The notes under the pieces were generated by a model, which made no database searches, was not told the origin of the DNA, and saw nothing but the letters and a program-made list of their open reading frames with translations. From NCBI RefSeq assembly GCF_004339665.1, contig NZ_SMMU01000035.1, forward strand, positions 1 through 32,068: 32,068 bases of DNA. Direction: 5' to 3'. The first letter of the stretch is position 1. The number at the start of each line of letters is the position of its first letter. The position numbers and the translations under genes are program-made. Positions 1,285 through 31,449 of this stretch are shown in pieces. Source of the DNA: Azotobacter chroococcum (GTDB lineage Bacteria > Pseudomonadota > Gammaproteobacteria > Pseudomonadales > Pseudomonadaceae).

Positions 1285-3834
1285 TCAGTTGCTGACTGAG
1301 GCTCCTAAGTTAGGCGCCCTGGATGGGCTGGCTTCCCCTGGTTCCCACCAGTAGCTCTGGCCAAACTCCCGCTGAGCGCGGCGCTCCATACGGCTGAGAT
1401 ACCCGGGCGAAAAATACTCTTGCAGCTGATGGAAAATCAAATGATCCGTCGCCGCCTTGGTGTACCAGAGGTTCGCGCCTGGCAGGTGCCCCTTGGTGAG
1501 CTGGATCAGGCGGGCCCCGACGTTCGATACGTCACCCTTCTCGACCGCGTTGGCCGTCATGCCTCGCAGGTTCAGCAGTGTCTCTAGATCGCCCGCCAAG
1601 GGGCCGCCGAACGCAGCCAGCGCAGAGGTTCCGCCCTGAGTCAGGTTGGAGAAGGCGAAATCTCCATACAGAGACAGAGCGCCACCCTTGAGCATGGCTG
1701 CCATGCCGAAGCCAAGGCCGGGAATGCCTCCAGCCGAATCGTCCAGCATGTTGCGCGGATCCTTGCCGCTGGCCACCTCGTTGAGCTGCAAGGCGATAGC
1801 GCCGAGCACCGTGAGCGATGCGAGCAGCGCAGCGCCATAGCCGGCCTTGCCCCAGCCAGTTTGCTGAGCCATCGCTCGTCGAAAATGCTTCGAAATCATC
1901 GATACAGAGAACGACTTGAACTGCCAGAAGCTGCGCATGAACTCGCCGCTCCAGGTGCCGCGCTGGTTGTTGCCGTGCATGAAGGCTTTTTCCCGGGCGC
2001 CTGGGCCTGGGATGGCCATGTTGGTTTCATCCAGCACCATGCCCAGCAGCTTGGTGGCTGCCTGCTCGCGCAGCCGAGTTGGCGACACGCCGCTCTGCGC
2101 TGATAGCGCGGCCAAATCGGCATCCGGAATGCGGTAGATGCTGCCGGCCGTCAGTACCTGATCGCCCGCGCCGCGCCAGTCCTCGGGCTGCGCAAGACGC
2201 CAGACGGACCAGTCTTGATCGGTAATGCCGCGGGCTTGCATCAGGCGGCGGTCGCCAGGCTCTAGTGCAGCTAGAGAATCGAAGCGGCGGGTCAGATCGC
2301 CGGTCACGTCCATCATGGTTGCGCCGAAAGCGCGTCGGTTGCCGGCATCGATAGCGTTCATTCCGGACAGACGCATAGTCGCGGTTGCAGCGGTCTGTGA
2401 CCACTTGGAAGCGCGTCCGGCAATCACGGCCTCAGTACCAAGCCCCTCCTCACCCCAGCGTGCCAAGCTGCCGACCAGCTGATCGATGCCGAGCCCTGCG
2501 CGCAACGCCAGCCTGCGATGGGTGGCGTCAGCCGGGTTGAGCATGCGCAGTTCATTGGCGAATACCTGCATCACCGGCATGCCGTTCATTTTTGAGGTCA
2601 GCGCGATGATGCCCTGGTCGGTCAGGCCGGTAATGACCGCTGAACCCAGTTTGCCGAACACGTTGGAGTTGCGGTAAGTGTCGAAGGCGTTCGACAGCGC
2701 CGCTGAGGCTGGCGGCTCGCGGGTTCCTGCTACCTCGGTGTAGAGCTGCTCCAGCCGGCGCACGCGCTTGTCGATCTGCGGCTTGGCCTCCGGCTTGGCC
2801 TGGATCATCTCTTTGGCGGCCGTCTCGGTGTGGAAGCGCATCGCGTGGTTTGGGTTGGGACCAAGCGCCTCAACCAAGGCGATATCACGGGCGGCGCGGT
2901 CGATGTGGCCGAACATGAGATCCATGAGCCCCTTGTCGCCGTACTTGGCCTGGGCGGCAAGATAGGCGTCCGCATCGCGGTAGTGGATCTGCCGTGACTC
3001 GCTACCGCGATTCGCGCGGGCTCCGCCGCCAGACGGCTGTCCTGGGGTAAGCTTGTTGACGCCGCCAGTGGCTACCGTCTCCCACGCCTTTGTGAAGAAC
3101 TCGGTCAGCTCGGTATCGGTCATCCGGCTGCCATCCTCCTTGAAGTACTTCGCGCGGTTCGCCCACTGCACATGGTCGGCAATCCACTGGTCCTTGTTCC
3201 GGGCGACCTTCAGTTGGCTATGGCTGCGCGGGATCGCCCAGTCATCGAGATAGCCGACGTCGCCTCCGGCACGGTTGAAACGCTCGCGCAGGCGGTTGGC
3301 CACCTCAGCGAACTGCTTGGCCCCGACCTTTGCCTCGGGCACGCCGCCGTCCTGGCCGTGCAGCTCCTGAACCAGTGCGCGCGCCTTTTCCGCATCGGCG
3401 AACAGGCCGAGGAACTTTCCGCGCGTCATATCGATGGCGTCCAGCATCGTGGACATGGCCTCGTCACGAATGGCGCGGCTGGCCGACTCGACAGACTGCA
3501 GGCCGGGATAGTCAGAAGCGAAGGCCAGCATCCTGTCCAGCGCTTTCAGTGGGTCGCCTGGGAGCTGGGCCATTAGGTTGGCAACCCTATCATGCGCCAG
3601 GATGGTCAACGCTACCCGCTGCTTCTTTTTCGCCGCGTCAGCCTGAAGCTCTTTCGCCGCTGCGCTGGCAGCTTCGGTCATGCGATCAGCCGCTGTTTTC
3701 GTCTGCCAGGCAGGATCGGTTTGCGCCAATTGGCGCATGTTTCGACGGATGCGCGCCTCGATATCCTTGATTTCCGGCTGGTTGAGGCTGCGGCCAATGG
3801 CCTGCTGAACCGCCTGGATGCATTGCTGTTTCAT
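1285..3834 (-). CDS. Large internal virion / ejection protein (849 aa)
   Basis: Third and longest of three consecutive proteins between the gp13-like protein and the fiber, where T7- and BPP-1-like podoviruses encode their ejected core proteins. The N-terminal third is helical. A YLDDWAIPRSHSQLKV segment near residues 196-211 is a motif I associate with podoviral internal virion proteins. A hydrophobic stretch near residues 665-690 (AALLASLTVLGAIALQL) and a Gly/Ala-rich region after it could enter the membrane during DNA ejection. I see no lysozyme or transglycosylase motif. The ATG overlaps the stop of the 644-aa gene (TGATG), so translation is probably coupled. Family assignment is by position, size and composition. 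Confidence 0.75.
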   Translation of the reverse strand: MKQQCIQAVQQAIGRSLNQPEIKDIEARIRRNMRQLAQTDPAWQTKTAADRMTEAASAAAKELQADAAKKKQRVALTILAHDRVANLMAQLPGDPLKALDRMLAFASDYPGLQSVESASRAIRDEAMSTMLDAIDMTRGKFLGLFADAEKARALVQELHGQDGGVPEAKVGAKQFAEVANRLRERFNRAGGDVGYLDDWAIPRSHSQLKVARNKDQWIADHVQWANRAKYFKEDGSRMTDTELTEFFTKAWETVATGGVNKLTPGQPSGGGARANRGSESRQIHYRDADAYLAAQAKYGDKGLMDLMFGHIDRAARDIALVEALGPNPNHAMRFHTETAAKEMIQAKPEAKPQIDKRVRRLEQLYTEVAGTREPPASAALSNAFDTYRNSNVFGKLGSAVITGLTDQGIIALTSKMNGMPVMQVFANELRMLNPADATHRRLALRAGLGIDQLVGSLARWGEEGLGTEAVIAGRASKWSQTAATATMRLSGMNAIDAGNRRAFGATMMDVTGDLTRRFDSLAALEPGDRRLMQARGITDQDWSVWRLAQPEDWRGAGDQVLTAGSIYRIPDADLAALSAQSGVSPTRLREQAATKLLGMVLDETNMAIPGPGAREKAFMHGNNQRGTWSGEFMRSFWQFKSFSVSMISKHFRRAMAQQTGWGKAGYGAALLASLTVLGAIALQLNEVASGKDPRNMLDDSAGGIPGLGFGMAAMLKGGALSLYGDFAFSNLTQGGTSALAAFGGPLAGDLETLLNLRGMTANAVEKGDVSNVGARLIQLTKGHLPGANLWYTKAATDHLIFHQLQEYFSPGYLSRMERRAQREFGQSYWWEPGEASPSRAPNLGASVSN

Positions 3835-28443: not shown

Positions 28444-28459
28444 AAGCCGCACATGGCTA
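28444..28459. promoter_or_regulatory. Candidate CI/Cro operator, left 2
   Basis: AAGCC-GCACAT-GGCTA, same inverted core (AGCC-N6-GGCT); centre 24 nt from left 1. A weaker overlapping AACC-N6-GGCA follows at 28459-28472. Confidence 0.65.
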
Positions 28460-28503
28460 ACCATAAATGGCACTCTTGGCTCCTCGGTTTCCAGGGGCCC
28501 GAA

Positions 28504-29175
28504 ATGACATCTACGCGCCAGGTGCTGGCTAACAATCTGAAATTTCTAATGGCTGGATCGGCAGAATTCGGCACGCAGACGCGCTTGTCCGAACGTTCCG
28601 GAGTCGGGCAGACTACAATTGGCCGTGTCCTTCGAAACGAAACGGATGCAGGGGTTGAAACGGTCGAGTCCTTGGCAAAGGTTTTCAAACTGTCCGCCTC
28701 GGATCTGATTGACCCTGGGCTAATCAGGCGCCTTTCGGGTGAAAGCTCAAACGTGGAAGGCACGAGTGGAGGAGTCGGACTTGTTCCGCTGATTTCGTGG
28801 GTGGCTGCCGGGATGCTGTACGAGGCAATCGACCAACTTGCGCCTGGGGACGCTGAGGAATGGCTTGAATCGCCATTCAGGCATAGCAATTCAACGTTTT
28901 GCCTGAAAGTGAGCGGGAACAGCATGTTTCCAGAATATCGGGATGGGGAAATCATCCAGGTAGACCCAGATGTTGACGCGGTGCACGGAAGCGACGTGGT
29001 GGTAAGGACGCCTGATGGACGTGCCACCTTCAAGCGACTCCAAGTGGAGTCGGATGGCGAGCAATTCTTGATCGCTATCAATGAGGATTGGCCCGAGCGA
29101 ATAATTCGCGTGCCGGAAGGAACGATCATCTGCGGAGTTGTAACAGGCTCCTGGATGGACCGCCGCAAGCGGTAG
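28504..29175 (+). CDS. CI-like repressor with LexA/S24 autocleavage domain
   Basis: 223 aa. N-terminal XRE helix-turn-helix (TRLSERSGVGQTTIGRVLRNETDAGVETVESLAKVF, about 26-61). The C-terminal S24 peptidase has cleavage site Ala102-Gly103 (WVAAGML), nucleophile Ser140 (SGNSMFP) and general base Lys177 (TFKRL). It keeps lysogeny and is inactivated by RecA-induced self-cleavage. I chose the ATG at 28504 (AGGGG upstream) because an earlier ATG at 28453 would place operator left 2 inside the gene and has no RBS. Intrinsic terminator follows at 29202. Divergent from the Cro-like gene. Confidence 0.9.
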   Translation: MTSTRQVLANNLKFLMAGSAEFGTQTRLSERSGVGQTTIGRVLRNETDAGVETVESLAKVFKLSASDLIDPGLIRRLSGESSNVEGTSGGVGLVPLISWVAAGMLYEAIDQLAPGDAEEWLESPFRHSNSTFCLKVSGNSMFPEYRDGEIIQVDPDVDAVHGSDVVVRTPDGRATFKRLQVESDGEQFLIAINEDWPERIIRVPEGTIICGVVTGSWMDRRKR

Positions 29176-29347: not shown

Positions 29348-29741
29348 GACAACCGAGAATGACTAGCAGTTGAGGCCCTCAAAAGGCCCTCTACGCACCC
29401 CAGCGCAGAGACAGGCAGCGATGCCTCCGGTTATCCGGGAACGCTCTTTAACAAGTCGAGAGATCCACAGACGCCAGACGGCAATTGAGTTCTGTGGACG
29501 GTACTGAAGGACGCAACGCTTCCGCCACCGGGGACCGGCGCGGAGGTTTGCGAGAAATACCAAGCCAGCTTGAGGAAATAGCTGGGCAGCCGGCTAGGCG
29601 CAGTACCACCCGAAAGCGTGGGCCTAGTGAATCCATAGGCAATATTGGGGAGCGGGTGACGAAGGTAGCCCCGCAAAGCGAGTTTCCTCGATGCCCTTGG
29701 CGACAGGGGCATCCGGGGAACCAACCGAAGAAGGAATACCC
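29348..29741 (+). ncRNA. Structured leader of the rightward early operon
   Basis: About 390 nt without a convincing gene. In order it holds: CCGG-TTAT-CCGG hairpin (29427-29438), boxA (29442-29454), 8-bp stem TCCACAGA/TCTGTGGA (29464-29471 with 29491-29498), long-range stem GGTACTG/CAGTACC (29500-29506 with 29601-29607) enclosing CCAGCT/AGCTGG and other hairpins, and GATGCCC/GGGCATC (29690-29696 with 29707-29713). This is dense secondary structure for such a short stretch. The open frame 29485-29916 crosses the next gene and has Arg/Pro-rich nonsense composition, so I treat the leader as RNA. Likely role: antitermination or translational control. Confidence 0.65.
29442..29454 (+). promoter_or_regulatory. 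boxA antitermination element
   Basis: CGCTCTTTAACAA, the rRNA-operon/nut-type boxA bound by NusB and S10. It is preceded by a boxB-like CCGG-TTAT-CCGG hairpin 3 nt upstream, the rrn order. Positioned about 115 nt after the candidate rightward promoter. Confidence 0.8.
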
Positions 29742-30132: not shown

Positions 30133-30393
30133 ATGGAACAAGACAAGATGCGCGAGGATTTCGAGGCGTGGCACCGAGATAGGTATCCAGCGGTGGATGT
30201 TCGCAGGCAAAACCTGCTCGGAACCTACACGCTACTCATTGTCGAGCAGCGATGGGAGTGCTGGCAGGCCTCCCGCGCCGCGATGGTGGTGGAGCTACCC
30301 GAGTGGTTCGACCGCTTCGACAGTGGCGACAGAACCTATTGGGTCGAGGACGTCGAAAAGGCAATCAACGCCGCCGGCATCCGCACCAAGTAG
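30133..30393 (+). CDS. Early phage protein (86 aa)
   Basis: MEQDKMREDFEAWHRDRYPAVDVRRQNLLGTYTLLIVEQRWECWQASRAAMVVELPEWF... The FEAWHRDRYP ... RWECWQASRAAMVVELPEW pattern is the common phage motif seen in small Ea-like proteins (an aromatic, Trp-rich core). GGAGAG RBS 4 nt before the ATG at 30133. Function unknown. The stop is directly followed by the first RNA element. Confidence 0.72.
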   Translation: MEQDKMREDFEAWHRDRYPAVDVRRQNLLGTYTLLIVEQRWECWQASRAAMVVELPEWFDRFDSGDRTYWVEDVEKAINAAGIRTK

Positions 30394-30399
30394 CCCCGG

Positions 30400-30518
30400 G
30401 CGGCATCGGGGAGTGGTCTGAATGCGCCCGCCAAGGCTCGACTTCCATCCAGCTGAGGAAGGAAAGAAACCCTCATGTGCCGGGATTGGCTCCGGCCAGA
30501 CCACTCCACCGATGCCGC
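30400..30518 (+). ncRNA. Structured RNA element 1
   Basis: Closing stem of 21 bp with a single A bulge (30508). The 10-bp block 30400-30409 pairs with 30509-30518, and the 11-bp block 30410-30420 pairs with 30497-30507. Inside lie CTTCC/GGAAG (30442-30446 with 30457-30461) and, directly against the 3' arm, GCCGG/CCGGC (30479-30483 with 30492-30496). The layout is a three-way junction. No convincing ORF spans it. Confidence 0.72.
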
Positions 30519-30567
30519 TCGCATCTGACAGCCGGAATAGACGGCCCTAATGCCGGGGATGGTTGAG

Positions 30568-30585
30568 GACGTGCGCCGACACGTC
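30568..30585 (+). repeat. Hairpin between the two RNA elements
   Basis: GACGTG-CGCCGA-CACGTC, perfect 6 bp. A CCGC-TCT-GCGG hairpin follows at 30609-30619. Confidence 0.6.
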
Positions 30586-30620
30586 GTAATCCGGTGAATC
30601 GGCCCGATCCGCTCTGCGGG

Positions 30621-30726
30621 GCGGTATCGGAGAGCGAGCTGAACTGCCGCGTATGTAGATGGCGTGGAAACCAGAAATGGATAAGTCCGGAGGTCAGGGC
30701 CCGGACAGCTCGCTCCCCGATGCTTC
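30621..30726 (+). ncRNA. Structured RNA element 2 (paralogue of element 1)
   Basis: 5' arm (30621-30641) pairs with 30706-30726: G-A-G-C-G-A-G-C-T-G with C-A-G-C-T-C-G-C-T-C (10 bp), an A-C mismatch at the place of element 1's A bulge, then ATCGG/CCGAT and weaker outer pairs. Directly against the 3' arm is TCCGG/CCGGA (30686-30690 with 30701-30705), as in element 1. The 5' arms agree at 17 of 21 positions, and where the 11-bp blocks differ the partner strand changes too. Confidence 0.7.
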
Positions 30727-31047
30727 CCCAGCATCACCCTCTGATCTGCCCTGAGGGCAACTGACTCCAGCAGTCAGCGTTTAACCCGCGCCGGGCGGGG
30801 TGGCAGCTCCCGGCACAGACACATCACCCGTGCGGGGCGGGCCCAACTGGGATATCCCCGACGGCGATCAGCAGGCCAGTGCGCCGGTGACAAAAACCCC
30901 TGCAGCGAATCACGGGCTGCTCCTTTCCCTCGCCCGGGGATTCGTCGCCTGGCCGGCGTAACCGGCCACTTCCTTCCCTCCCGCGCCCATCAGAAAGCTT
31001 CCTCGTCCGAGGCGGCTTTCAATGCGCACGACATGGAGAAAACCAGA
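30727..31047 (+). other. Non-coding, hairpin-rich stretch upstream of the 133-aa gene
   Basis: No gene seen. Hairpins: TGCCC/GGGCA (30747-30759), CTGACT/AGTCAG (30761-30777), GCCGGG/CCCGGC (30790-30814), GGGATATCCC palindrome (30849-30858), TGGCCGG/CCGGCCA (30950-30968), and GAAAGC...GCTTTC with inner CCTCG/CGAGG (30993-31020), which sits just ahead of the RBS of the next gene. Minus-strand open frame 30910-31485 is antisense and not believed. Confidence 0.6.
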
Positions 31048-31449
31048 ATGGCATCGCTTGCACTGCGCGATCAGCGCGCATTCAGCGCCGCCCAGCACGC
31101 CTGGGACAACTTGGAGCCGCCGGCCCAGCCAGATAGCTGGATCGAAACCGAGCAGGGCCAGTCCTGGCTCGGCGAAAGCATCAGCGCTCTGATCCTCGGC
31201 CGCGACGTTGTGATCACCGCCCGCCCGCGTCTCGTCGTTTCCGCCGCTGATTTCATCACGACCTTCGGAGAGTCGGCAGCGGACATCTACGCCTACGACC
31301 CGAAAAATAGCCTGGAATGGGCGCTGGCCCGCGGCCTGTTGTTCGGCGGCCAAGAGTACCAAGACCTCGCACGACAGATTGCCAAAAAGATGCTGCTCAA
31401 GCACCAGGACGCAGCAGAGAAAGCCCACGCCTGGCTGGAGGACTACTGA
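31048..31449 (+). CDS. Hypothetical early protein (133 aa)
   Basis: MASLALRDQRAFSAAQHAWDNLEPPAQPDSWIETEQGQ... then SALILGRDVVITARPRLVVSAADFITTFGES and a helical C-terminus DLARQIAKKMLLKHQDAAEKAHAWLEDY. No family recognised. Chosen start at 31048 because GGAG lies 9 nt before it; the ATG at 31033 has no RBS. Overlaps the next gene by TGATG. Confidence 0.72.
   Translation: MASLALRDQRAFSAAQHAWDNLEPPAQPDSWIETEQGQSWLGESISALILGRDVVITARPRLVVSAADFITTFGESAADIYAYDPKNSLEWALARGLLFGGQEYQDLARQIAKKMLLKHQDAAEKAHAWLEDY

Follow-up and report, generated by a model that had tools for sequence, protein, structure and literature searches.

The 32,068-nt stretch of Azotobacter chroococcum DNA analysed here (the window) encodes, among ten ORFs scanned against PHROGs, tail, terminase, head-tail adaptor, DnaB-like, DnaC-like and CI-like repressor proteins, and is therefore a prophage; no tRNA gene was found in it. 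Downstream of the CI-like repressor gene, between the genes at 30133-30393 and 31033-31449, two related elements (E1 and E2) lie in tandem on the plus strand with their starts 220 nt apart, as an earlier note on this DNA had described. The features of the locus are as follows.

28453-29175, CI-like repressor gene (PHROGs), upstream of E1 and E2
30133-30393, gene 5' of E1 (phrog_343)
30398-30522, plus strand, E1, whole element (closing stem and interior)
30398-30420, plus strand, E1 closing stem, 5' arm GGGCGGCATCGGGGAGTGGTCTG, about 22 bp with 30497-30519; covariation in relatives
30426-30437, plus strand, E1 5' hairpin GCC(CGCCAA)GGC in the D-arm position, read by hand from the minimum-energy fold
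30430-30434, plus strand, E1 loop segment GCCAA, proposed to pair with UUGGC at 30486-30490, read from the sequence
30454-30475, plus strand, E1 middle hairpin TGAGG(AAGGAAAGAAAC)CCTCA, read by hand and absent from the minimum-energy fold
30479-30496, plus strand, E1 3' hairpin GCCGG(GATTGGCT)CCGGC in the T-arm position, directly abutting the 3' arm
30497-30522, plus strand, E1 closing stem, 3' arm (CAGACCACTCCaCCGATGCCGC at 30497-30518), with one bulged A at 30508
30618-30729, plus strand, E2, whole element (closing stem and interior)
30618-30641, plus strand, E2 closing stem, 5' arm, 18 bp with one A.C mismatch
30642-30705, plus strand, E2 interior; model R2 (below) aligns the closing stem and CCGGAG-UCAG
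30686-30705, plus strand, E2 3' hairpin TCCGG(AGGTCAGGGC)CCGGA, abutting the 3' arm
30706-30729, plus strand, E2 closing stem, 3' arm of the 18-bp stem with one mismatch
30827-30907, Proteo-phage-1 RNA (RF03044), downstream of E2, 63.4 bits in the Rfam scan
31033-31449, gene 3' of E2 (phrog_4801)

Structure and setting of the tandem elements

Both long closing stems, each with a G/C hairpin set directly against its 3' arm, are present as the earlier note described. None of 200 shuffles folded as well as E1 (z-score -5.44), and one of 200 folded as well as E2 (z-score -3.15). The 18-bp helix of E2 exceeded that of all 200 dinucleotide shuffles (maximum 14), and the longest bulge-free run of E1, 14 bp, was not above its shuffles (maximum 15; n=200). 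Between the inner arms of the two copies (GAGTGGTCTG/CAGACCACTC versus GAGCGAGCTG/CAGCTCGCTC) there are three differences, all three of them compensated in the partner strand. The earlier note had read these changes as selection on RNA structure, for which two copies are too few on their own and for which relatives supply the covariation (see below). Its statement that no ORF is present was too strong, as ORFs overlap the elements on both strands in the mechanical list, none of them with support. Rfam scans of the window placed no family at gathering over either copy, in keeping with the earlier note; the best weak hits were to miRNA models, at 20.3 bits where the cut-off is 80, and no tRNA (RF00005) match was obtained at E1 or E2.

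The 5' hairpin of E1 was not resolved by the automated hairpin scan; related loops (CGCCAA/CGCCAC) occur at three other loci (L041, L042 and L007). The loops of the other two E1 hairpins recur on different stems, AAGGAAAGAAAC of the middle hairpin being flanked by GGCGG/CCGCC in L003 and L027, and GATTGGCT of the 3' hairpin by GTAGG/CCTAC in L007.

Several further features of the region were recorded. A boxA-like sequence, CGCTCTTTAACAA, lies upstream of E1 at 29442-29454, inside a long leader (~29425-29740) without a clear gene, part of which (~29479-29564) shows 78% identity to D3, PMG1 and related phage records. The Proteo-phage-1 RNA (RF03044) is also found directly 3' of the element in L027, at 1894-1978.

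Constant frames and exchanged interiors in relatives

Compared by BLAST with phage records, the window elements had no match, and a wider stretch matched nothing over the elements in phages and nothing at all in plasmids; relatives were reached through a whole-genome search, a covariance model and other members. A second prophage copy resides in the same genome (C29:40506-40894, 90% identical). Compared with the window, its E1 arms are 100 and 96% identical and its spacer and E2 100% identical, whereas the E1 interior is only 45% identical over 82 columns (the upstream gene, 44%). Such low identity between near-identical arms, spacer and E2 indicates, at the level of sequence, that the interior of E1 is exchanged between constant arms. 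By BLAST, 3 of the 4 genomes in the genus sample (own genome counted) and 7 of the 398 in the family sample were matched, at least one of the latter probably by chance. Among these seven genomes, L010 looks like a chance match, with no framed stem seen. The framed stem is present in L008, with no hairpins found in its interior.

A covariance model (R1) built from eight elements matched 50 of the 398 family genomes, in 10 of 19 genera, at E<=0.1, with 26 of the genomes listed at E<=1e-6, these E-values being rough and R1 itself having been built from some of these loci. The matches share a recurring frame, GCATCGG...CTG / CAG...CCGATGC, whose centre varies, and they differ widely in their interiors. 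We fitted 21 matches above the strict cut-off (20 distinct rows) to the closing-stem structure in an alignment (A3) in which 94.2% of cells pair and both sides change in 12 of 26 pairs; the covariation score was 0.227 versus 0.083 for shuffled alignments (0 of 500 as high), for an alignment fitted to the structure under test. Pairing is kept in the relatives. G.U and A.C cells numbered 11 and 16 in A3, and 20 and 22 across 42 frame members (12 of the A.C cells in one column); as the two are about equal, the pairing does not tell RNA from DNA. An A.C mismatch at one stem position (columns 18/395, 0-based), apparently that of E2, is carried by 12 of the 42 frame members. Two Pseudomonas-frame interiors (L013, 2258-2406; L059, 1501-1648) end in a canonical T arm, CGGG(TTCGAAT)CCCG, and ARAGORN calls neither element.

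One type of interior, termed class II (TGCGCAGGCTGATGCGC ... GCCGGAGATCAGCnCCGGC), was found under quite different closing stems in the P1 isolate OP279344, Salmonella phage IME207, mEp460, HK620, KP591P3 and phiEt88, as well as in HK629 (variant hairpins), Magnus, Jeremy (variant), ZC03 and Burkholderia phage CSP3; the family as a whole occurs also in PAE2 and Klebsiella phages. The reference P1 record (NC_005856) holds another interior in the class II slot, and Citrobacter phage phiNP matches the L064 interior type, which is different from class II. Some part of one class II member was matched by BLAST in 163 phage records at E<=1, a P1 stretch with neighbouring sequence included matched 152 at E<=0.1, and pattern scans of IMG/VR gave at least 120 matches. 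Among the loci examined we counted 160 5' hairpins; for 86 of them an exact 3' hairpin followed at no more than 350 nt (73 distinct), and the linker to the 5' hairpin was AA in 68 of these 73.

The closing stem was then assessed over seven bases on each side, at a position fixed by the interior alone, which left 32 distinct arm pairs. Own arms were Watson-Crick at 200 of 224 positions, as opposed to a mean of 115 for swapped arms (maximum 139; 0 of 10000 as high), and all seven pairs were standard in 24 of the 32 own arm pairs compared to 52 of 992 swapped ones. Counted from the innermost pair, the commonest uninterrupted stem length was 7 (9 of 32), with five stems of 3 or fewer, three of 6 and fifteen of 8 or more; no consistent CCA tail was seen among the 19 of the 32 arm pairs listed. 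In an alignment of 24 of these elements (A4), six of the seven closing pairs change on both sides, with a covariation score of 0.261 versus 0.069 (0 of 500), a count to which the hairpins and the loop contact contribute nothing informative, as they hardly vary in a set chosen for them.

A model (R2) was built from these 24 elements, all taken from loci outside the window; two of them (L071 and L118) are from phages that carry the Pseudomonas-type frame. With filters off, on the 601 bases from 30300 to 30900, R2 scored E1 at 25.0 bits (30414-30503) and E2 at 13.2 bits (30635-30712), the next best match reaching 3.4; with default filters on 131 kb, neither window copy was listed at E<=1, and the close relatives L027 (24.0) and L003 (17.1) were. 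The abutment of the 3' hairpin on the closing stem, a trait of this family, is present in both E1 and E2, and the model scores suggest that membership is good for E1 and fair for E2. Across the phylum sample, R2 matched 59 of 398 genomes at E<=0.01, a weak level left out of our counts, and only 7 of 398 (own genome counted) at E<=1e-6. The family has no name in Rfam and was not found in searches of the openly licensed PubMed Central literature; published motifs without an Rfam model, some of which are listed for phages and Pseudomonas in a passage of PMC2864571, lie outside the Rfam comparison.

The earlier note had called the pair duplicated, which holds in that tandem pairs do recur but not for the interiors, which are exchanged. 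In the P1 isolate and its relatives (L067, ~1415-1640), GTTGTG occurs both in element A, in its 3' arm, and in element B, in its 5' arm; through this shared sequence the stems may be mutually exclusive or may extend one another. The cargo of element A in L371 and L286 contains, by eye, a hammerhead-ribozyme-like core in a framed element; Rfam returned no hammerhead match at gathering for either, and passages of PMC3088659 on hammerheads in prophages name no such locus.

A probable tRNA-like plan, with complementary loops in many members

The elements run from the closing stem through an AA linker, a 5' hairpin and a variable middle to a 3' hairpin that abuts the stem. In tRNA, the acceptor stem is followed by a 2-nt linker, the D arm, the middle and the T arm without a linker. 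In both order and spacing, the element apparently matches a tRNA whose anticodon arm has been replaced, with acceptor, D arm and T arm following one another as before. The same slot in enterobacterial phages, immediately 3' of a preceding framed element, is occupied by sequences with D-arm-like and T-arm-like parts and complementary ends; by reading, these carry a large insert and lack a normal anticodon arm. Such tRNA-looking slot-B members include, among the matches listed, L360, L304, L348, L288, L306, L320, L344 and L330. The Rfam tRNA model matched full-length at slot B in L288 (40.0 bits) and L360 (31.9 bits; cut-off 29), and in Pseudomonas phage Jeremy (L266) it matched the element preceding the class II one (34.9 bits). 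L344, L330 and L304 fell below this cut-off, ARAGORN called none of nine tRNA-like loci (L266 lying outside the nine), and apart from tRNA at L288, L360 and L266 no family was named by Rfam for the elements scanned. Of 16 phages (17 annotated stretches), five have a tRNA gene on the same strand within ~250 nt of the element (P1 OP279344, IME207, where the tRNA was called by ARAGORN, KP591P3, ZC03 and phiEt88); none lies within this distance in the other 11, CSP3 having one ~1.5 kb off.

Additional support for this plan may come from the loops. With hairpins searched from the frames as anchors and not from the loops, both hairpins were resolved in 36 of the 60 distinct elements at slot B and in 26 of the 47 with a Pseudomonas frame. 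Complementarity of 4-5 bases links the two loops in 21 of the 46 distinct loop pairs (that of L316 probably by chance), most commonly as GCTGA/TCAGC, with the compensated variants GTCGA/TCGAC (L372, L301), GCCAA/TTGGC (L041, L042) and GCCGA/TCGGC (L063). Own loops exceeded swapped ones in all four tests (0 of 5000 in each), with means of 3.50 versus 2.72 over the 46 distinct loop pairs (0/5000) and 3.13 versus 2.48 when each 5' loop was represented by a single row (31 rows; 0/5000). The E1 loops CGCCAA and GATTGGCT, read by hand and not resolved by the scan, give GCCAA/UUGGC; no loop-loop contact was found in E2 by the hairpin-loop scan.

Candidate functions and known systems

Taken together, these comparisons point to a family with paired stems, a loop contact, a tRNA-gene setting in some members and interior exchange. 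A structured non-coding RNA family is very probably what E1 and E2 represent, and its fold is probably tRNA-like; the existence of an RNA family without an Rfam name and with an unexpected tRNA-like plan is well supported. Our preferred, if tentative, reading is that E1 and E2 belong to a phage family of tRNA-like RNAs acting as decoys. Each would be transcribed with its operon and fold like the upper half of a tRNA: an acceptor-like closing stem on which a T-arm-like 3' hairpin stacks directly, in both E1 and E2, a D-arm-like 5' hairpin and a loop contact imitating the tRNA elbow in E1 and many relatives (none being found in E2), and an exchangeable middle in place of the anticodon arm. Such an RNA would act in trans, occupying or inhibiting a host factor directed at tRNA, be it a defence enzyme that cleaves tRNA or an enzyme that processes or modifies it; the target would be set by the middle, the part that changes fast. 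Rapid replacement of the middle while the tRNA-like outline stays constant, seen across very different phages, would fit trans-acting decoys better than a cis-acting signal.

Whole phage tRNAs counter tRNA-depleting defences (PMC11555353; PMC10264068). As described in PMC11555353, a phage tRNA lost its effect when its anticodon or stem-loops were altered, and its authors presume that this tRNA works in protein synthesis. This account does not favour decoys that lack an anticodon and slightly lowers our estimate of a decoy or anti-defence function, which, taken by itself, we regard as rather doubtful.

The same stems may be read otherwise. RNase P or RNase III could cut them as processing punctuation, separating messages or freeing the middle as a base-pairing sRNA without any decoy; stem lengths that in most members range from 6 to more than 20 bp, the acceptor/T-arm stacking, the position of elements between genes and between tRNAs, and a GATGC in the 3' arm that by reading could pair with a downstream GCATC in several members would all suit this explanation, but it needs neither a compensated loop-loop contact nor fast interior exchange, and we consider it unlikely. 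The pairing itself would also be compatible with an element acting as DNA, a single-strand or cruciform hairpin cassette for recombination or replication whose arms are the exchange sites, given that arms are kept while interiors are swapped and that G.U is not in excess over A.C. Loop-loop complementarity, Rfam tRNA matches in the slot and tRNA neighbours on the same strand nevertheless favour RNA, and homologous recombination at shared flanks accounts for the swapping, which makes the cassette improbable. Small ORFs of the mechanical list overlap the elements in the window, and minus-strand genes are annotated over relatives in mEp460 and in reference P1 (plp in NC_005856); that they are the real genes is hardly credible, as the six frames differ between the window and the sister prophage over the E1 interior while the arms covary.

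HK022 put consists of two tandem RNA stem structures in a phage, promoter-proximal and cis-acting. The earlier note had inferred a duplicated riboregulator or antitermination RNA, with put as a functional analogue to compare, and a cis-acting antitermination or attenuation element of this kind could draw on the early operon after the CI-like repressor gene, the boxA-like site upstream (29442-29454) and the HK629 and HK620 copies between pR' and S, the latter just before the annotated terminator tQ. This proposal is not supported by comparison with the relatives, which are placed in the middle of operons, in late leaders and within tRNA clusters (the ZC03, Magnus and KP591P3 copies lie between tRNA genes or elsewhere), with a freely exchanged interior and a tRNA-like architecture; nor are the window elements promoter-proximal as put is, and we judge a put-like role very improbable.

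Akin to E1 and E2, T4 rnaC and rnaD (species 1 and 2; NC_000866, 70908-71171; L386) are tandem stable RNAs, 139 and 119 nt long, that adjoin a tRNA cluster, and the 3' end of rnaC is a T arm, CCGGG(TTCGAAT)CCCGG, plus 9 nt; unlike the R2 family, they score at best -0.1 bits with R2 and have no closing stem of at least 5 bp at their annotated ends. tRNA itself (RF00005) shares the order of acceptor, 2-nt linker, D arm and T arm, with L288, L360 and L266 above its cut-off, but E1 and E2 give no match, the anticodon arm is replaced and the elbow consists of base-paired loops. ROOL and GOLLD are likewise structured RNAs of phages and prophages, often near tRNA islands, but much larger, GOLLD often exceeding 800 nt, as stated in part of PMC12286853; neither had an Rfam match in the window or in 44 loci. 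According to PMC3475682, the pseudo-ToxI of phage PhiTE is a phage RNA that beats a toxin-antitoxin defence by mimicking a host RNA, and evolves through expansion and recombination; it mimics a type III antitoxin repeat and is not tRNA-like. Part of a preprint on prophage Pas sRNAs (PMC13192938) describes tRNA-like sequences with STnc100 nearby; in L265, STnc100 lies at 3568-3782, away from the element.

It is conceivable, if somewhat unlikely, that phages keep slots, some of them within tRNA clusters, for diversifying pseudo-tRNAs, in which the acceptor/T-arm/elbow outline is retained and swappable cargo stands in place of the anticodon arm, as a counter-defence arsenal, of which T4 rnaC and rnaD would be further examples. 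The family spans the P1 isolate, HK620, HK629, PAE2, ZC03 and Klebsiella and Burkholderia phages, and links phage tRNA genes, whose role is debated, with phage stable RNAs such as T4 rnaC and rnaD. Rapidly exchanged RNA genes can thus sit in unannotated phage DNA, where current annotation misses them.
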